Assembly (NCBI GenBank): GCA_012033015.1
Contig: JAAUPS010000004.1
Coordinates: forward strand, 1 to 62,919
DNA: 62,919 bases
Reading direction: 5' to 3'
Origin: Phormidesmis sp. RL_2_1
GTDB taxonomy: Bacteria > Cyanobacteriota > Cyanobacteriia > Phormidesmidales > Phormidesmidaceae
Positions 52,115 through 62,919 of this stretch are shown here, piece by piece. The position numbers and the translations under genes are program-made. Each line of letters starts with the position of its first letter. Positions within the stretch are counted from its first letter, which is position 1. A model generated the notes under the pieces. That model saw only the letters and a program-made list of their open reading frames with translations, was not told where the DNA came from and searched no databases.

Positions 52115-52402
52115 ATGAATAAAGGTGAACTCGTCGATACAGTCGCAGAGAAATCTTCAGTGACCAAGAAGCAGGCTGATGCTGTGATTTCAGCGGCTGT
52201 AGAGTCCATTATGGAAGCCGTGTCGAAAGGCGAAAAGGTGACGTTAGTAGGCTTTGGTTCGTTTGAGCCCCGTGCCCGCAAGGAGCGCGAAGGCCGCAAC
52301 CCCAAAACTGGTGATACGATGGTGATCCCAGCAACTACGGTGCCTGCTTTTTCGGCGGGAAAGCAGTTTAAGGAGATGGTGGCAGGTAAAAAGAAAAAGT
52401 AA
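52115..52402 (+). CDS. hup: HU-type nucleoid DNA-binding protein
   Basis: 95 residues. Typical HU: MNKGELVDTVAEKSSVTKKQ, VTLVGFGSFEPRARKEREGRNPKTG (the DNA-binding arm, given in parts) and FSAGKQFKEMV with a lysine tail. The TAAGGAGAT Shine-Dalgarno 5 nt from the ATG is strong. Its last stop base is the first base of the next ATG, so the cobC-like gene is translationally coupled to it, an unexpected pairing. Confidence 0.97.
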   Translation: MNKGELVDTVAEKSSVTKKQADAVISAAVESIMEAVSKGEKVTLVGFGSFEPRARKEREGRNPKTGDTMVIPATTVPAFSAGKQFKEMVAGKKKK

Positions 52403-53570
52403 TGTCGAGGCCAGTTCATGGGGGCAATTTGGCTTGGGCTGCCCGAATAGCCGGGTGTGCTCCGGATGAACTGTTAGACTTTTCAGCTAGTATTAGTCCG
52501 CTCGGGCCGCCTTATTCTGTCAATGAGGCGATTCGAGCGGCTTTTTCGTCGATGGGGGCTTACCCAGATCCCAATTATGGTGAGCTGCGAGCGGCGCTAG
52601 CTGAGTATCACAACATTTCGCCTGAGTGGGTGTTACCTGGTAATGGCGCGGCTGAGCTGTTAACTTGGGCGGCTAGGGATTTGGCGGCGTTGGGGCACGG
52701 TTGCTTTGTGCTTTCACCGGGCTTTAGTGATTATGATCGAGCGCTGCAGGCGTTTGGGGGTAGGGCTAGTGGTATTCCGTTGGTCGGTTTTGAGACCGGT
52801 TTGAACGCTCGCTTAGGGGCCTGCTCAGCCCATGGGGAAGATGAGTGGAATTTGGCGGGTTGGGATGCTAATTTGGGGCGTGATTTACTACGGACGGCCG
52901 ATCAGTTGAGTGGCTGTGGGTTGCTGTTGAATAATCCCCATAATCCTACGGGGGCTTTGTTTGAGCGATCGCGAGTAGGACGGTTAATCGCCCAAATGGG
53001 CCTGGTGGTGGTGGATGAGGCGTTTATGGATTTTTGCCGCCTGATCGCCAGCAGAGTGTAATTGATTGGGTGGGTGAGTTTTCAAATTTGGTGGTGATTC
53101 GTTCGCTGACGAAGTTTTATCGGTTGCCGGGGCTGCGGTTGGGGTATGCGGTGGCGCAGCCAGAAACGCTGCGACGCTGGCAAAAGTGGCGTGATCCTTG
53201 GTCGGTGAATGTGTTGGCGGCGGCAGCGGGCGTGGCTGCGGTTCAAGATGCTGATTTTCAACGGCAAACTTGGGATTGGCTAGAAGCCGCGAATGCTCAG
53301 ATGTATGAAGGTTTGAAGGGCCTATCGGGGCTAAGGCCGTTGCCGAGCTGTGCGAATTTTTTTTTGGTGGGCGCTCAGGTCTCTACTAGGGCGTTACAGA
53401 CACAGTTGCTGAAGCAGTATCAAATTTATATTCGTGACTGTATGAGTTTTGAGCGGTTGGGCGATCGCTATTTTCGCGTGGCGGTGAAAACCCTTGAAGA
53501 GAATCAGCGGTTATTGGCTGCGATCGCGCAAGTTCTGCCCCAACTATCAGAAACCGCCCATGCCCGTTGA
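52402..53570 (+). CDS. cobC: threonine-phosphate decarboxylase-like PLP enzyme (one frame break)
   Basis: About 389 residues after repair. Fold-type I PLP enzyme of the histidinol-phosphate aminotransferase/CobC-CobD group, making aminopropanol phosphate for cobalamin. The N-terminal HGGNLAWAARIAGCAPDELLDFSAS and YPDPNYGELR are typical of cobalamin CobD/CobC. LLNNPHNPTG and SLTKFYRLPGLRLGYA carry the cofactor contacts and the Schiff-base Lys. The break near 53033 (TTTTT run) needs one T: VVDEAFMDFLPPDRQQSVI. It overlaps the downstream flavoprotein gene by 11 nt. Confidence 0.88.
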
Positions 53571-55090
53571 CTATGACCTGGTGATTTTAGGCGGCACGCT
53601 GGCAGGACGGGTGGCGGCCCAAACGGCCATCGACTATGGCGCTCGGGTGGCATTGGTGGAGCCGCCCGGTTTGTTTGAGCAGCGGCAGCAGGCGCAGTAT
53701 TTGCTGCATGGCATACAGCAGATTGGCAATGGCCGACAGCATCAGCAGGTCAGTCAATGGTTTCAGCCCAGGGTGCAAAGGGTAAGCCAGGTGAAGCCAG
53801 GCTTGGTATGGTCGGCATTGGTGGCATGGAGTAGGATTGCCGCTGAAACGCAGCTCGCCGCACTATCGCCCGCAGCGCTAAGCACAAAGGGGGTCGATGT
53901 GATTTTGGCGATGCCTGAGAAGTTGGCGGCGCATGGGGCTAACCGCTTAGCGCTCACCGTCTCGCATCGCAGGCTATCAACGCGCGCGCTTTTGGCTGCT
54001 TTTGGGACAGTGCCAGTGCCCCTATTTGAAACAGCCTTATTTAAGGCCGCATTTGGAAAAACACTTGGAAAAACACTTGAAAAAACGCCTGCAAAATACC
54101 TCCCCAAGATATGGGTCAATGCCTTTTTGCAACGGGGATAGACAGGTTGCTGGCGATGCCAACGTTACCGCAGGCGTTGACGATTTGGGGCGGCTCTCTA
54201 GAGGCAGTGGTTTGGGCTGAAGCGCTCAGTGCGATTGGAGTCGAGATCCAACTGGTGACGGATAGTTTTTTAAAAGATGAGGATGGGGATATTCGGCAGC
54301 TAATGCGATCGCAGCTCCTCATCAACGGTGTTACCATTGCCCATCCTTCCTCAGTCTGCGATTCTTCAAATCTTCATTCCCTAGTCCTAGCGCAGCTTAC
54401 AGGGGCTGGGCAAAAACCTTGGCCAACCACTCACTGCTGCTAGATCAACAGCGACCGGCTTTGGTTTTGCCCAAATTTGTATATGGGGCAAAGGGTAAAC
54501 CGCTAACAGGTTTTGAAGCAAGCGCCTGTTTACCGGTTACCCAGTATCTGCAAACGGGCCATTCGCGGGTGTTTGCCTGTGGCGCTGTGATTCATCCCAT
54601 GCCAGTGCATGGGGCGATCGCACAGCAGGAAGCTAAAGTTGCGGTATGGAATGCGCTGTTTGTCCCAAACCGCCAAGTTGACTATGGTGCAATTGCTGAA
54701 GGCTATGATCGATTTGCCCGCGTGGGGCGCGCGCTCACCCGTCGCCGCGGGCAATCGTGGACGGCGAGCGCTTCCAACAGTACCGATTTGACCCACATCA
54801 CTCCGCTGCCTAGCTACTGCAAAGTGATCACTGATCGGGGCCGACTGCAGGGTGCATATTTGCTAGGCGATGGGGCTAGCGAACTGATTCAGCTCCTCGC
54901 GCCGATGGTGGGGCAATCGGTGGATTCATTGCTAGATGTGATGGGTCGATCGCTCGTATTTTCTAAGGCATCAGGCTTAGCCGAAGTGGTGCGCGTGGCG
55001 TTGGCAAAATCGCAGCAGGCTCGCTGGCAAGGGGGCCACTGGCGTAGGGATTGGGCCGAAAATTGGTTTAACTGGCGGCGAAGTCGGTGA
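53560..55090 (+). CDS. FAD-dependent pyridine nucleotide oxidoreductase-like protein (two frame breaks)
   Basis: About 510 residues after repair. The N-terminal FAD motif is DYDLVILGGTLAGRVAAQTA; an NAD-domain-like TIWGGSLEAVVWAEALSAIG lies mid-protein; a dimerisation-like C-terminal part has HSRVFACGAVIHPMPVHGAI. Break 1 near 54125 (one T: NAFFATGIDRLL) and break 2 near 54413 (one A) join the frames. Unlike lipoamide dehydrogenase, the region after the first FAD strand (EPPGLFEQRQQ) has no CxxxxC redox disulfide, so it cannot use the classical mechanism. A KTLGKTLEKTPAK micro-repeat is inserted near residue 170. Confidence 0.75.
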
Positions 55091-55774: not shown

Positions 55775-56437
55775 ATGTCTTTCCACAAACTTTCTGCTTC
55801 CTTGCTGGCTACCACTGGACTACTCTTCACCTCCGTTCCTGCCTTTGCAGGCCCTTTCGATACAGTTCTACCCGGTAGCATTTTTACGAACCCTGGCACA
55901 GTCATCACCCCTGGCCCAACAGGCATTGCCACACCTGAAGCGACCCCTACCCCTGGCGCTCAAAGCGAAAATGTAGGCAACAGTGAAGTGCAAGGGCTAG
56001 GCGATCACGACTCTTGGGTTAGCCAAGAGGTATTGGCTGAAGACCCTCGGGCACTGTGTAGTGATGTGGGCCTAGGCAACAACACCTACGCTAGCAACAG
56101 CCAAAGCTCAACTGATAACTCCGAACGCACTCGTAGCCGCAGTTCAAGCTCTTCTGCTGGCGGCGGCGGCGGTGGCGTCAGCTTCTTAGGAATTGGCGTT
56201 AATGGCAGTGGCTCTAGCCAAAATGGGCAAAGCAGCAGTAATTCACGCGATACCCGCAACCGCCAGTCCGATGCTCAAAGCACGGAAACATCTACCGTAG
56301 TGGTAGGCCGCAATTGCGACGCATTTGTAGAATCAGCCGCCGCACGGGATATGAACTACGAAGACAACTTGACCCGCCGTTACGAGATTCGCTCCGGTCG
56401 TCGAGGTGAGCAGGTAGATAATTTGCTGACGCGATAG
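55775..56437 (+). CDS. secreted Ser/Gly-rich protein, unknown
   Basis: 220 residues. Signal peptide with an AFAG cleavage site (~25); a Pro/Thr/Gly-rich segment; a conserved-looking block GDHDSWVSQEVLAEDPRALC; a Ser/Asn/Arg-rich linker with a glycine run (SSSSSAGGGGGGVSFLGIGV); and a C-terminal VVVGRNCDAFVESAAARDMN with the second Cys. The two Cys could form a disulfide outside the cytoplasm. AGGAG lies 8 nt upstream. Function unknown. Confidence 0.7.
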   Translation: MSFHKLSASLLATTGLLFTSVPAFAGPFDTVLPGSIFTNPGTVITPGPTGIATPEATPTPGAQSENVGNSEVQGLGDHDSWVSQEVLAEDPRALCSDVGLGNNTYASNSQSSTDNSERTRSRSSSSSAGGGGGGVSFLGIGVNGSGSSQNGQSSSNSRDTRNRQSDAQSTETSTVVVGRNCDAFVESAAARDMNYEDNLTRRYEIRSGRRGEQVDNLLTR

Positions 56438-56511
56438 ATATAGCATTGGTCAGTTTGATTCAACCCATAGCATTTGCCACATCGCTCTACTCAACCCATC
56501 GCTCTACTCAG

Positions 56512-56540
56512 CAGATAGCCCAGATTCTATGGGCTATCTG
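56512..56540 (+). terminator. perfect 11-bp hairpin between secreted-protein genes
   Basis: CAGATAGCCCA pairs with TGGGCTATCTG over a 7-nt loop, about 75 nt past the preceding stop and 38 nt before the next ATG. Weak T-run (TTTT after GCCTG). Could be a terminator or leader structure. Confidence 0.6.
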
Positions 56541-56577
56541 GCCTGTTTTCCAACTCTTTCTGCAAGAGATTTTTGCC

Positions 56578-57156
56578 ATGACCTTCAAACTGTTTTTTAT
56601 TTTAGGAACAGCCCTCGTGCTGTTGCCAGTGTTGCCAGCGGGGGCTCAAATCTATGAAAGTGAGTCCTATTTTTCTAGCCAGACCGCTCAAAGTTCTCAG
56701 ACCGCTCAAAGTTCTCAGACCGCTCAAAGTTCTCAGACCGCTCAAATGGTGCAAACCCTTGGACAATTTGCGCCATCTACAGCGTCAAGATTGCCGAGTA
56801 CGTCATCTCCAACCGTCGTTGTGCGCTGCTGGCAAACTAGCCAGCGGCAAAGTCTTCGCAGTCTTATCAGCATCATTCAGCCCTCGTCATCGACAGCGTC
56901 TCACCCTGCTGAGTCGGCGATTCGAGAGTTGCTCACCCGTCAAGCAGAGCGCCAGGTAACGATCGAAATCCATGGCAATTGTCATGATGTTTCTATTCAA
57001 GTTGAATCTGCACGGCCTGAATCTACATGGCCTGAATCTACATGGCCTGAATCTACATGGCCTGAATGGCAGGAACGAACCTATCCCTTGGAGCAGCTTG
57101 AACCGTGGTTAACCCGTACAGGATCGGGCTGGGACTGGTTTTTGCGACAACGGTAA
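56578..57156 (+). CDS. secreted protein with two internal tandem repeats, unknown
   Basis: 192 residues from the ATG at 56578, chosen because it begins a clean signal peptide (FKLFFILGTALVLLPVLPAG, cleavage near GAQ). An upstream in-frame start would add a non-signal extension. The mature part begins with four SSQTAQ units (18-nt repeats), continues with a conserved-looking VVVRCWQTSQRQSLRSLISI, then three PESTW units (15-nt repeats) and a Trp-rich C-terminus. Two Cys (RCW and GNCHD). Function unknown. Confidence 0.65.
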   Translation: MTFKLFFILGTALVLLPVLPAGAQIYESESYFSSQTAQSSQTAQSSQTAQSSQTAQMVQTLGQFAPSTASRLPSTSSPTVVVRCWQTSQRQSLRSLISIIQPSSSTASHPAESAIRELLTRQAERQVTIEIHGNCHDVSIQVESARPESTWPESTWPESTWPEWQERTYPLEQLEPWLTRTGSGWDWFLRQR

Positions 57157-57175
57157 ATCAAATATTTTGCCAAGG

Positions 57176-57230
57176 CTGCATACCGATTGAGTTTCGTTCC
57201 TAAGGTATGAATAGAGAGGGAAAACCCCTC
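57176..57230 (+). promoter_or_regulatory. shared leader element, copy 2
   Basis: CTGCATA, TTCCTAAG (again 21 nt after the start of CTGCATA) and GAGGGAAAACCCCTC, ending 47 nt before the next ATG. Homologous to 55673-55726. Confidence 0.65.
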
Positions 57231-57277
57231 ACCACAATTTTTCAACATTCACCTTATCAGTACAAGGAAGACCTGAG

Positions 57278-57994
57278 ATGAAATTTCAAACGTTATTGAA
57301 TTTTGCTGCTTCTGCAGCGGCTTCTGTTGCTTTTGTCGGTGCTCAAGTGTTACCGGCGGCGGCCCAATCCACCGTTCAATCTGCTGGCCAATCCACCGTT
57401 CAATCTGCTGTTCAATCTACCGTTCAATCTACTCCGCACTCACCCCTGCAATCTACCATTCAAACCAGACAGCTTCAGGCTCAAACGATCACAATTCCAG
57501 CGACAACTGGTATTGTCATTAGCTTTTTAGCACCTGTCAGCATAGATGCAGGAGAAGCTGCCTATCCATTAACTGTGCCCCTTTCACAAGCTATTACTGA
57601 TCCGCAAGGGAATGTGATTGTCGCTGAGAATAGTCCTGTCAGTATTGTGATTCAGCCGGAAGCGGGCGGCGCTAAAATTGTTGCCCAATCTATTTTAATC
57701 AACGGTCAAATTGTTCCTGTTCAAGCGACCAGCCCGGTGATTCCGGGGACGACGGTGGTTCATGTGCGCGCCAATGATCGAGCCGCTGACAACGGCGCAA
57801 CGATAGGTCGAATTGTTGGCAGTGGCTGGGGCTTTATCAATGGGGGCGATCCAGATGCCTTTGATCAAGGCGGTATGTTAGGTAGTTTTGTCGGTATGTT
57901 GTCTGGTAGGCAAGATGAGAGCACCCGTGTGGTACAAATTCCTCAGGGTAGCGTTTATGTACTCTCTTTGGAAGAAGCCATCCACCTGCGGTAG
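57278..57994 (+). CDS. secreted beta-rich protein, unknown
   Basis: 238 residues. Signal peptide (SAAASVAFVGAQVLPAAAQ, cleavage after AAA/AAAQ). A STVQSA-type repeat region (~30-60) follows. A beta-rich domain begins TITIPATTGIVISFLAPVSI and continues with VIVAENSPVSIVIQPEAGG and GQIVPVQATSPVIPGTTV. A glycine-rich segment and LPQG-like VVQIPQGSVYVLSLEEAI close it. It probably lies in the periplasm or outer envelope. It ends 46 nt before the caspase gene in the same direction, so the two may be cotranscribed. Confidence 0.7.
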   Translation: MKFQTLLNFAASAAASVAFVGAQVLPAAAQSTVQSAGQSTVQSAVQSTVQSTPHSPLQSTIQTRQLQAQTITIPATTGIVISFLAPVSIDAGEAAYPLTVPLSQAITDPQGNVIVAENSPVSIVIQPEAGGAKIVAQSILINGQIVPVQATSPVIPGTTVVHVRANDRAADNGATIGRIVGSGWGFINGGDPDAFDQGGMLGSFVGMLSGRQDESTRVVQIPQGSVYVLSLEEAIHLR

Positions 57995-58040: not shown

Positions 58041-61000
58041 ATGTGCCCTGCGAGTATCGGTACCAGCCAATCTGTGCGATCGCCCAAAACGCAGAATGCC
58101 AAACTTTGGCTTGTTTTAGTCGGCGTCAACCACTACCAAGATGCTGAACTGCCGAACCTGTGCTATTCAGTCATGGACTGCCAGGGACTCAGCGAAGCAC
58201 TGCAAGAAGCAACCCAGGCCGCTGATCAAGCTCAAATGAGGGTGCATCATGATAATGCTGAGCAGCCACCAACCTTGGCTGCAGTTCAGGCCAGCCTAGA
58301 AGCAATGGTCTGTCAGGCTCAAAGGCAAGACACAATTTTGCTGTATTTTTCGGGGCATGGGGTGCAAGATTTGCCCAGTCAACAGGCCGTACTGTGCTTA
58401 GCAGATACCCATAAAGACAACTTGCTGACTACAGGACTACCATTGGCGTCAATTTTGCAGGCTTTTGGTCGCTGTAGCGCCCGCCAGCAGTTGGTGTGGT
58501 TAGATGCTTGCCACAGTGGCGGCATGAGCTTGAGAGGGACGCAGGCAGAGATGCAAACAGGGATGCAGACAGGCGCAGCGCCCTTACCTGATCCGATGCC
58601 ACCAATGGTGAGTGTCTTGCGTCAGCGAGCGGCCCAGAGTAACGGCTTTTATGCGCTGCTATCGTGCGATCAAGATCAGCGCTCTTGGGAGTTTCCCCAG
58701 CTTGGCCATGGCGTGTTTACCTACTATCTGATGGCAGGGCTGCGGGGCCGTGCGGCCAATGCACAGGGGATAATTGAAGCAGATAGTTTGTACCGCTATG
58801 TGTATTATCAAACGCTGCAGTACATTGATAAAACGAATCAACAGCTTCGCTTGATCAACCAGCAAAAGCGCAGCAAAGGCGATGCTCAGCTTCATCGTGA
58901 ATACCCATTACAAACGCCTAAGCGAATTGTTGAAGGCGTTGGTGAGATTACGCTAGATCTCAAAACTGTCAGTGTTGAACAATACCATCTGCGCCAAGCA
59001 CTATTAATCGACGGGCAAACCAATTCACCCACTAAGCTGCCACTGAGTAAAGTGCTTCGGCAGACTGGGGATTTTGACTTAAGCTATTGGCCCCAGCCCA
59101 GTGACGAGAAGGAGGATGTTCGAGCAGCGATTGGAAAGTGTTTGAAAATTGAAAAGAACTTTCAAGTCGATGGCCCCAAGTCTGTTCAGTCGATGGTCAG
59201 TCCAGGGGTTGAGCCAGGGGTTGAGCCAGGGGTTGAGCCAGGGGTTGAGCCAGTAGGAACAGCGTTGCTATATGTACGGGGCGAAATCAAGACGACAGAA
59301 ATCGGAGACTCTGTGCTGGTACTTGCCGATGGCACTCACCTGAGTCGCTCTTGGCTGAGGCAGATGCTGCGACGCTCGACCATGGCGCAACAAATTGTTG
59401 TTCTTGACTGCCCGAAGGCCGAGATACTAGCAGAATGGGTAGAAGAGCTGCAAGCGGAGATTGGGCGAGAACAGTGTTTGTTGGCTGCGGCGGCCCCTGC
59501 ATCAGCGCCGGATGCCTTTGTCCAAGCCTTATTAGATACGTTAAGCGAGGCCGACTTACCCACGGGGCTACCGGTGGCGGGATGGATTACCCAATTACAA
59601 GGGCGACTGGCGCTAGCAGGCGTAACGCTGCACTTTTGGCTCTCTGGCAATAGTGTGATTGAGGTGATTCCTGGCCGCACGGCCTCCCGCAGAGGGGAGG
59701 CCCAACCACCCGTTGATATTGGGTTATGCCCTTATATGGGACTGCGTGCATTTGGGACGGGTGATGCGGCGTTCTTTTTTGGCCGTGAGACTTTAGTCCA
59801 AAGACTGTTGCAAGCTTTGAATGCTCAATCGTTTTTGGCAGTCGTAGGGGCTTCTGGCAGTGGTAAGTCTTCGGTGGTGCAGGCAGGGTTAATGGCCCAA
59901 CTGCGGCAGGGTAAACAAATTCCAGGCAGTAAAAGCTGGTGGACGGGTAGCTTTCGTCCGGGGGCAAATCCTTTGCAGGCATTGGCGATCAGTCTGGCTC
60001 ACCAATCGATGGATGGTAAATCGGTTGAGGTGGATGGTGAAACAGAGCGACTTCAGGTGGAGGGACTTTTACATCTGGGGGTGGAAGGGTTTGTCCGATG
60101 GCTGAGAATGCGCCTTGAACCGATGGTGGTGCTGGTGGTCGATCAATTTGAAGAGTTGTTTACCCTGGCCAGTGAGCAAGAGCGACAACAGTTTTTGGCA
60201 TTGATGATGGGCGCGATCGCCCATGCCTCAGATCGTTTTAAACTCATCATCACCCTCCGCGCCGACTTTGTCTCTGCCTGTTTGGATATTCCTGCTCTGG
60301 CCCAAAGGCTACAGCAATCTAGCGTATTTGTTCCCCCTGTGCTCTCCGAGGCCGATTACCGACAAATTATCTTGCGGCCCGCTGAAAAGGTAGGCTTGGT
60401 TGTTGAACCCGAGCTGGTCAATGTGCTGTTACAAGATATTCATCAGGGGGTGGGGAACTTACCCCTGTTGGAATTTGTTCTAGAGCAGATTTGGGAGCAG
60501 CGTCAACCCGGACGGTTGGCCTTGCAAGTATACCAAGAACAAGTCGGTGGGCTAAAAGGGGCGCTAGAGCGTAAAGCACAAGCTGTGTATGACTCTTTAG
60601 CGCCAGCCGCTCAAGACTGCGCTCGTTGGATTTTCTTAAACCTAACCCAGCTTGGTGAAGGCACAGAAGATACACGCAGGCGGGTTGAAAAATCTGAACT
60701 GATGGTTGCTAAGTATCCTGAAAAACTCATCGATGAGACGCTTCAAGCGCTCACAACTGCCAAACTAGTTGTTCTAGATGGCGGCGATGAGCCACCGAGA
60801 ATAACCGCTGATGCAGCCAAACCGCGTGGTTCCCATCCAGCCTTGATAGCTGATCGTTCCGCCTCTTTTTCTGCTTCCCTTTCCACCTCTGCTGTCACCA
60901 TTGAAGTGGCCCATGAAATTATTATTCGCCATTGGTCTACTTTGCGTTGGTGGCTAGAAGAAAACCGGGTGCGGTTGCGATCGCAGCGTCAGGTAGAACA

Positions 61001-62919
61001 AGCGGCATTGGCTTGGATGCACAGCGATCACCAACCGGACTTTTTGCTGCGAGGGGTGCCTTTAGATGCGGCAGTAGACATTTACATCAACCATACCGAC
61101 GAGCTATCGCAAGATGTGCAAACGTTTGTAGAAGCTGGGTTAGCGCAGCGCGAGGCTGAGCAACAAAAAACACAACAACAACTGCGACAGGCCAAAAGGG
61201 CGATCGCCCTGATCAGCACCTTGGCGATTGGGGTCACCGGCTTTGGCGGGGCGACTTACTGGCAACAGCAGCAAGGGCGACTCAGAGAAATAGAGACTCT
61301 CAATGCACTGTCAACCGCCCAGCTTGCCAATCATCAATCCTTAGAATCAATGGTGAGTGCAGTGCAGGCAGGCCAGCAGTTGCAGGCGATTCCCAAACTG
61401 TTGCGGCGGTGGCAGGCTCAGCCGCTATGGGCCCAAACCACAGGTACATTACAGCAGGCGGTGAACCTATCTTTTGAGCGCAACCGGCTAGAGGCGCACA
61501 CTCAGCAGGTCAATGCCGTCGCCTACAGCCCAGATGGACAGTTGCTGGCCTCGGGCAGTGACGATGGGCAGCTTGAAAGTGTGGCGAGCAGATGGCACCC
61601 TGCTGAATTCTATGGTGGTAGGGGCCAAGGCAGCCGATGCGATCGCGCCCAGTCGAATAACGGATGTCACGTTTAGCCCCGATGGACAAAGGATTGCCGT
61701 TGCTCAATCAGATGGAGTAGTAACCCTTTGGCAACCAACTAGCGACAGCGCTCAGCAGCACATTACAGCCCATTCAGATTGGGTCACTGCCGTTGACTTT
61801 AGTGCCGATGGTCGGCAGCTTGCAACGGCTAGTCGCGATGGGCGAATCAAACTGTGGTCAGCAGAAGACGGGCAATTTATCACGACACTTGCCGGTCATC
61901 GGGGCTGGGTGAATGCGTTGAGCTGGAGCCCTAATGGCCAGCAGTTGGCTTCAGGCGGAGAAGATCAGCGCCTGAAGCTGTGGAACGTGGCTCAAGGCCA
62001 GCTCGCTTGGGAAGTCGATGGCCACGATGGCGAATCGGTAAGCGCTGTAGATTTTAGTCCCGATGGGGCTTGGCTGGTGTCAGGCGGCGGCGATCGCACG
62101 GTCAAGCGATGGGCTTTGGCAGCCAAAGCACCTGAAATTTTAGGCACACATGGGCAGCCAGTCACCGCCGTTGCCTTTAGCCCTGACGGCAAATCTGTGG
62201 CTTCGGCTGGCAGCGATCGCACCGTGCAGCTTTGGCCCCTCGAAGATACCCACGCACAGAGCAGTGTTGCGCGTTCTACGATGAGCCTTGAAGGGCATGG
62301 CGGCAGTGTGTTAGATCTGGCCTGGCGTCCTGATGGCGAGCGATCGCATCTGCCAGTACTGACAAAACCATCCGACTGTGGCAAGTGCCCCCATCGAGCA
62401 GCCATCTACGCTGGAGCTATATGGCGTGCAGCTCAGCCCGGATGGAAAAACACTGGCCGGAATAGATTGGCAAGGTGATGTGCAACTATGGGCGCGCGAT
62501 CATGACCACCTAGGAGCACAACTCATGACATTGCCAACCCAAGCCAGCTACGTTTTCCAAATATCGTTTGGCGAAAAGATACTGGCCTCGGCCAGCGAAG
62601 ATGGAATCGTGCGGCTGTGGAACTTGACGGATGGCAGCTTGGCGAAGGCCCTAGTCGGGCACGAAGGGGCTGTTGAAACGGTAGCATTTAGGCCAACGGT
62701 TAGGCCCTATAAACAACAACTGCTTTCAGGTGGCATCGATGGCATGTTGCGTTTGTGGGCAGCCGATGGCGAAACGCTCCAGCATTGGCGGGCGCATGAT
62801 CAAGGCGTCAGTGCGATCGCCTGGAACCCGAAAGGAACTTTGATAGCCTCAGGCAGCACTGATAAAACAGTGAAAATTTGGGCTGATAACGGCACATTGC
62901 AGCATGTTTTAACAGGTCA
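58041..62919 (+). CDS. caspase-nSTAND1-WD40 protein (partial at right edge; three frame breaks)
   Basis: More than 1600 residues. Domain order: peptidase C14 caspase (~20-270; catalytic His in LLYFSGHG, Cys in LDACHSGG); linker; a degenerate second caspase-like region (~410-530); nSTAND1 NTPase from CPYMGLRAFGTGDAAFFFGR (Walker A GASGSGKSS, Walker B VVLVVDQFEELF); a coiled coil and a transmembrane-like segment (AIALISTLAIGVTGFGGATY); then at least eleven WD40 blades continuing off the window. Breaks: near 61566 (one G too many), near 62342 (one G missing) and near 62408 (one A missing). Such STAND proteases are proposed to act in programmed cell death or phage defence. A 12-nt array encodes PGVE repeats near residue 395. 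Confidence 0.88.

Follow-up and report, generated by a model that had tools for sequence, protein, structure and literature searches.

An orthocaspase gene of Phormidesmis sp. RL_2_1 encodes, between its active-type caspase domain (D1) and an nSTAND1 NTPase switch domain, a second domain (D2) that is almost certainly a pseudo-caspase. The preliminary description of this DNA had suggested such a tandem of caspase and pseudo-caspase, and the suggestion stood: the predicted fold of D2 is caspase-like, caspase profiles align with it and the catalytic dyad is gone. The explanation that we consider best, and reasonably probable, is that D2 is a caspase-fold pseudo-protease within an active-type orthocaspase, where it would act as a partner in cis that relays the state of the C-terminal part to D1.

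The gene lies near the end of the stretch of 62,919 nucleotides that was analyzed (the window), and its parts are listed in Table 1. D2 directly precedes nSTAND1 in the window protein. A search of the window genome with the first 586 residues returned the protein's own locus as the only full-length match, and two other caspases matched weakly. Genes at 52402-53570, 53494-55090 and 61513-62917, including the WD40 end of the caspase gene, are split across overlapping frames, which looks like the result of assembly indel errors rather than of real breaks.

Table 1. Features of the tandem caspase gene and their positions in the window.
Feature	Position	Strand	Basis
Gene frame: D1 caspase, D2 pseudo-caspase, nSTAND1 and start of WD40; 1211 aa	58041..61676	+	ORF list, Pfam
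D1 (aa 20-282), active-type orthocaspase domain; His (FSGHG) and Cys (LDACHSG) both present	58098..58886	+	Pfam, NCBIfam, alignment
Conserved connecting segment (YPLQTPKRIVEGVGE); also found in some D1 proteins without D2	58887..58982	+	
D2, almost certainly a pseudo-caspase domain; predicted complete caspase fold, catalytic dyad absent	~58983..59690 (aa ~315-550)	+	profiles, AlphaFold2, Foldseek
PGVE-coding perfect 12-bp repeat, 4.3 copies; loop within D2	59202..59253	+	repeat scan; low-pLDDT stretch
nSTAND1 NTPase switch domain (aa 564-999)	59730..61037	+	Pfam PF20703, E 1.1e-119
WD40 repeats over three overlapping frames, reaching the contig end	61485..62917	+	ORF list, Pfam

Fold, extent and active site of D2

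All of the motif pairs that had been quoted as a replay of the caspase core after PGVE are present in the gene frame, and the core pairs aligned in order when the profiles of D2 and D1 were compared (E 5.4e-7 over 72 columns; E 6.3e-7 over 70 columns in a second comparison). A profile of 24 DCC-motif orthocaspases, which are active-type cyanobacterial proteins, matched 60 of the 66 aligned D2 copies at E<=0.01 but none of 330 shuffles. The same profile recognized the D2 copy of the window at E 1.3e-9 and, in a comparison of profiles, aligned with D2 over 174 columns (E 6.4e-16).

Established caspase models gave a divided answer. The NCBIfam model NF047832 (caspase, EACC1-associated type) matched 53 of the 66 D2 copies at E<=1 (best 3.1e-6), far below its curated cut-off of 140 bits, whereas the Pfam model PF00656 (Peptidase_C14), which matches D1 of the window at 4.9e-14, matched none of the 66 at E<=0.05 and was absent for D2 at E<=1 among the Pfam matches listed (25 of 40 families). 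In the window, NF047832 gave E 5.8e-4 and 19.4 bits for the D2 copy and E 7.3e-4 for the middle region of the whole protein; scores for the D1 stretch (122.5 bits) and the whole protein (134.4 bits) also lie under the cut-off. D2 is homologous to NF047832 and is not a member of that family. A PDB sequence search with the D2 profile returned nothing convincing (best E 0.27), and weak Pfam matches of D2 to SopB HTH, ATP_bind_1, DmmA-like and RsbRD_N were judged to be due to chance.

Structure prediction and a fold search, both of which the preliminary description had proposed, pointed to a caspase-like domain. The AlphaFold2 model of D2, built from the 66-row alignment, reached a pLDDT of 88.3 and a pTM of 0.84. 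Foldseek returned 31 PDB matches to this model at E<=0.001, and ranks 1-31 were all paracaspase, metacaspase or caspase structures, amongst them MALT1, metacaspase 9, CED-3, drICE, caspases 4, 6, 7 and 9 and, at rank 30, the complex of c-FLIP with caspase-8 (PDB 3h11). On the basis of this model, D2 appears to adopt the caspase-hemoglobinase fold.

Strand 1 (QALLIDG), helix 1, strand 2 and helix 2 of the model precede the PGVE repeat, and strand 3 (TALLYVRG) comes after it; the domain is therefore taken to begin at ~58983. The region first assigned to the second domain, 59270-59700, holds about the last three fifths of D2 but misses its true start, and PGVE, which had been read as a linker between domains, is instead encoded by a 12-bp repeat in a low-confidence loop inside D2. 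In one of the 66 D2 copies (L063, a minus-strand frame), a collagen-like GxxGxx insert sits in another loop, directly after LDCP. When D1 and D2 were modelled together (536 residues), the pTM was 0.86, so the model is confident of the mutual placement of both domains; this value is high for a pair with a connecting segment between its members, and suggests that the predicted packing is fixed.

The His-Cys dyad was found in D1 of all 66 aligned tandem proteins and in D2 of none, and GH and DxC motifs were present in 78 of 78 near-complete D1 domains of the named set described below. At the His position, D2 carries Arg in 36 copies, Lys in 10, Gln in 6, Glu in 3 and other residues in the remainder (n=66), so that the Glu noted previously is correct for the window copy but represents a minority state. 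The absence of His is itself conserved among the homologues, as 65 of 66 copies do not have it and the single copy that does has no Cys nucleophile. The nucleophile position is occupied by Pro in 56 of 66 copies and by Cys in none. The Cys that had been described as remaining, in LDCPKAE, stands one residue before that position, where 57 of the 66 copies have Cys. The corresponding sequence in the active-type DCC-motif relatives is LDCC in 24 of 24, with GHG and DCC kept in every one (DCC[HY]S in 21, DCCNS in two and DCCFA in one), and the Cys of LDCP aligns with the first, non-nucleophilic Cys of this motif; the remaining Cys is therefore no sign of activity. Judging from these alignments, both catalytic residues are lost in D2.

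The frequency of the LDCP Cys could be taken to mean that D2 is still an enzyme acting through this residue. With His gone from 65 copies, the Cys itself missing from nine and its counterpart in active relatives non-nucleophilic, we regard this as hardly credible. Other residues of D2 are conserved, including the Asp of LDC (66 of 66), the Arg two positions before the lost His (61 of 66) and a basic motif, SRSWLRQxLRRS. D2 has two conserved Cys, and a disulfide bond linking them was considered and rejected: judging from the predicted order of strands and the sheet order of caspases, they would be on adjacent parallel strands but at opposite ends.

Distribution, selection and domain architectures

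The D2 profile identified at least 70 places in 53 of the 388 genomes of the class at E<=2.4e-46, followed by a gap to 1.4e-12, where ordinary caspases start; these genome counts are lower bounds, since the best seven candidates per genome were scored. The D2 alignment contains 66 of the 70 places and the D1 alignment 43 of the 66 tandem proteins, and D1 accompanies D2 in all 66. The species-genome collection yielded 140 confirmed loci when scanned, and the 80 named loci that were kept are all from Cyanobacteriota, a statement that covers 80 of the 140. Cultured carriers of the tandem include Phormidesmis priestleyi ULC007 (L133) and Oscillatoria sp. PCC 10802 (L148). These named loci hold 81 D2 frames, each of which also carries D1, whole or partial, and the order active to pseudo was seen in the 66 and in the 81 tandem frames. 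Amongst six other genomes sampled from the genus of the window, D2 was found in two, and weak caspase matches alone in four. Two tandem caspase genes adjoin in Anabaena subtropica (L197), and two share a contig in Nostoc sp. T09 (L170/L178).

D2 is more variable than D1, with a mean column identity of 35% (66 rows) against 55% (43 rows), as might be expected of a decaying remnant without function. This is the least credible of the readings considered. In all 26 close pairs compared, which are not independent of one another, dN/dS was 0.06-0.36 for D2 (0.06-0.34 for D1), which places D2 under purifying selection, and the domain is present in 53 genomes of the class.

The C-terminal parts of the 81 named frames comprised nSTAND1 in 48, GPIA repeats in 13, a GUN4 motif in 10 and tails of no assigned class in 10, where nSTAND1 was assigned by profile and GUN4 and GPIA by simple motifs, with GUN4 confirmed by Pfam in one frame. 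The arrangement is thus not restricted to nSTAND1-WD40 proteins, the setting in which it was first described. The GPIA-repeat module behind two of the tandem caspases (L180:4604-7186 and L198:4574-6898) had no Pfam match at E<=0.01.

These architectures bear on the reading that D2 serves chiefly as a structural adaptor. In that case it would be a rigid spacer, or a surface for oligomerisation, linking D1 to the STAND ring without acting directly on catalysis by D1. The position of D2 immediately before nSTAND1 in the window, the confident joint placement of D1 and D2 by AlphaFold2 and the conserved basic motif are all consistent with such a role. D2 is, however, retained where GUN4 or GPIA repeats stand in place of nSTAND1, and the former active-site region is conserved (the Arg, Asp and Pro described above), which a mere spacer would not need. 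We therefore consider the adaptor reading unlikely, and prefer that of a cis partner acting on D1.

The genes beside the tandem caspase were also examined. Just upstream in the window, 57278-57994 encodes a 238-aa, apparently secreted protein with no Pfam match; in 4 of the 80 named loci (L132, L133, L144 and L146), a relative of this protein is likewise encoded upstream of the tandem gene. PF19953 (EACC1) gave no match at E<=1 in the three upstream frames of the window (55775-57994), which was the one locus searched in this way, and the window is therefore not assigned to the EACC1 two-gene system (PMC7159879). In three of three proteins, PADLOC assigned a caspase model to D1. Its other labels were mad3, a weak match located on nSTAND1, HEAT-ARM_XIII in the WD40 region and PD-T4-6 in the GUN4 portion of L168, and we do not infer a defence locus from any of these labels. 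In two Nostocales loci, a small gene (L166:9849-10343 and L206:9815-10324) lies behind the tandem caspase; its start resembles a methionine sulfoxide reductase and includes a putative export signal.

Origin of D2

D1 also occurs without D2, in 24 places at E<=1.1e-62. Twenty of these were fetched, with WD40-like motifs in 15 (three of them Pfam-checked) and nSTAND1 in none, and these relatives, at least 20 in number, indicate that D1 does not depend on D2 in general. The closest relatives of D2 are the DCC-motif caspases, a set made up of the best non-tandem matches of the D2 profile. Of these, 22 of 24 continue into nSTAND1 in the same frame, a fusion rate that applies to D2 look-alikes and not to all orthocaspases. 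No second caspase was found in the DCC-motif orthocaspase-nSTAND1 proteins. The window's own genome has a protein of this kind, which D2 resembles, a DCCHS caspase-nSTAND1 protein (L113/L212, C406).

In a tree with outgroups, D2 formed one clade (100/100) that grouped with the DCC-motif caspases (99/99), with D1 elsewhere. This tree included 20 of 33 D2 rows (six divergent ones were removed by name), 20 of 24 DCC rows, 19 of 37 D1 rows and 16 outgroup rows, and left out five other fetched caspase loci; a first tree without outgroups had comprised 33 of 66 D2, 17 of 66 tandem D1, 20 single D1 and 24 DCC rows. In a tree of nSTAND1 domains, those of the tandem proteins formed one clade (99) and those of the DCC-motif proteins fell in another (99), which includes three nSTAND1 labelled 'other', and the two clades were not joined.

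The preliminary description implied that D2 was a copy of the neighbouring caspase. Internal duplication of D1 is disfavoured, as no D2 copy among the 66 was matched by the D1 profile at E<=0.01 and the outgroup tree places the nearest relatives of D2 in another orthocaspase lineage, that of the DCC motif with nSTAND1; the AU test, however, did not reject D2 and D1 as one clade (p 0.077). The sequences lead us to favour, short of proof, an origin of D2 by demotion. D2 would originally have been the catalytic caspase of an ancestral caspase-nSTAND1 protein, and would have been demoted when a second caspase of the caspase-WD40 kind, now D1, was fused in front of it.

Putative role of D2 and relation to known systems

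By analogy with c-FLIP, coral caspase-X and Csx29, we lean towards D2 being a regulator of D1, with inhibition likelier than activation. D2 would pack on D1 as a permanent cis partner, as c-FLIP does with caspase-8, and would relay to it the state of a C-terminal sensor or switch, such that D1 may be held off until nSTAND1 (or GUN4) changes state.

Coral caspase-X from Acropora millepora has, like the proteins studied here, two caspase domains per chain, one of them without the His and Cys, and removal of its dead domain raised killing in HeLa cells (PMC4715348). Its model pairs the domains through their beta-6 strands, as in c-FLIP/caspase-8, where a dead caspase domain is likewise paired with a live one (PMC4715348). 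Caspase-X differs in its dead-to-live order, in its animal caspases and in that no STAND or WD40 domain is mentioned in the accessible text (PMC4715348). Its likeness to D1-D2 is most likely convergent. The c-FLIP and caspase-8 pair differs in being two separate proteins of animal apoptosis. Csx29 (TPR-CHAT) also has a pseudo-caspase next to an active caspase in a gated protease, but in Csx29 and separase the pseudo domain is N-terminal to the active one (CHAT1 before CHAT2), the domains belong to the CHAT/separase branch and the gate is a CRISPR effector, not STAND (PMC10028731). TPR, the scaffold of Csx29, was absent from the window protein among the Pfam matches listed (25 of 27 families).

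Closer to the organism, cyanobacterial pseudo-orthocaspases have a p20 domain without the His-Cys dyad, as does D2 when taken as a domain (PMC6426788). That classification, however, concerns whole proteins, with Tyr-Ser as the commonest change, whereas here an active-type p20 is followed by a dead one with Arg or Lys and Pro (PMC6426788); owing to D1, the window protein as a whole would count among the true orthocaspases. The same source mentions multiple p20 domains in a few proteins, with no detail in its accessible portion, and states that orthocaspases cut their substrates behind residues with a positive charge (PMC6426788). D2's nearest relatives found, the DCC-motif orthocaspase-nSTAND1 proteins, many with WD40 (e.g., L113), have their caspase in the same place before nSTAND1 but retain GHG and DCC.

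In vWA-MoxR conflict systems, ~70% of the caspases in effector position are inactive (PMC7159879), so that dead caspases such as D2 have a precedent in prokaryotic conflict proteins. Those caspases, however, take the effector position of vWA proteins, and a tandem with a live caspase is not described in the accessible part of that paper. The proposal made there that they are dominant-negative regulators or peptide-binding domains (PMC7159879) is in keeping with a further reading, in which D2 is a binding or decoy site that uses its rebuilt pocket to recruit or sense a ligand, be it a peptide, a phage protein or a substrate of D1. The rebuilt pocket residues of D2 are indeed conserved, but of the three upstream genes of the window only the one encoding the 238-aa protein recurs beside the tandem gene, in so few of the named loci that we consider this reading improbable, and we retain that of a cis partner controlling D1.

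A pair of active and dead caspases in a cyanobacterial protein was not described in the accessible portions of the open-access papers PMC6426788, PMC8283722, PMC7475262, PMC3501461 and PMC2853523, nor in those of PMC5756287, PMC7159879, PMC8195603 and PMC10907252. Cyanobacterial orthocaspase surveys, as far as their accessible text extends, record accessory domains and whole-protein pseudo-forms, and do not record a dead caspase behind a live one. The same literature already records dead caspases in prokaryotic conflict systems and, for corals and Csx29/separase, chains that combine a dead caspase with a live one. What sets the present proteins apart from these precedents is the live-dead order, a caspase pair coupled to nSTAND1 or GUN4 and two domains, D1 and D2, that probably differ in ancestry.

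Altogether, these comparisons suggest that a dead caspase came separately to partner a live one in animals (c-FLIP, caspase-X), in the separase/Csx29 branch and in cyanobacteria. For the family as a whole, we tentatively propose that a demoted ancestral caspase controls a widespread group of cyanobacterial orthocaspases in cis; a foreign caspase would have been added in front, D2 would serve as the coupler between NTPase switch and protease, and the cassette would later have been joined to GUN4 or GPIA sensors. Cyanobacterial orthocaspases serve as models in the study of how programmed cell death arose, and surveys of them, in their accessible portions, count p20 domains by means of caspase profiles. 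The Pfam caspase model is blind to D2. Within the open-access literature, a conserved dead caspase inside active-type orthocaspases has so far gone unnamed, and D2 would offer a direct handle on the silencing of a STAND-linked bacterial caspase. If the proposal is true, the demoted-caspase cassette would be a prokaryotic counterpart of c-FLIP/caspase-8, fused in a single chain.
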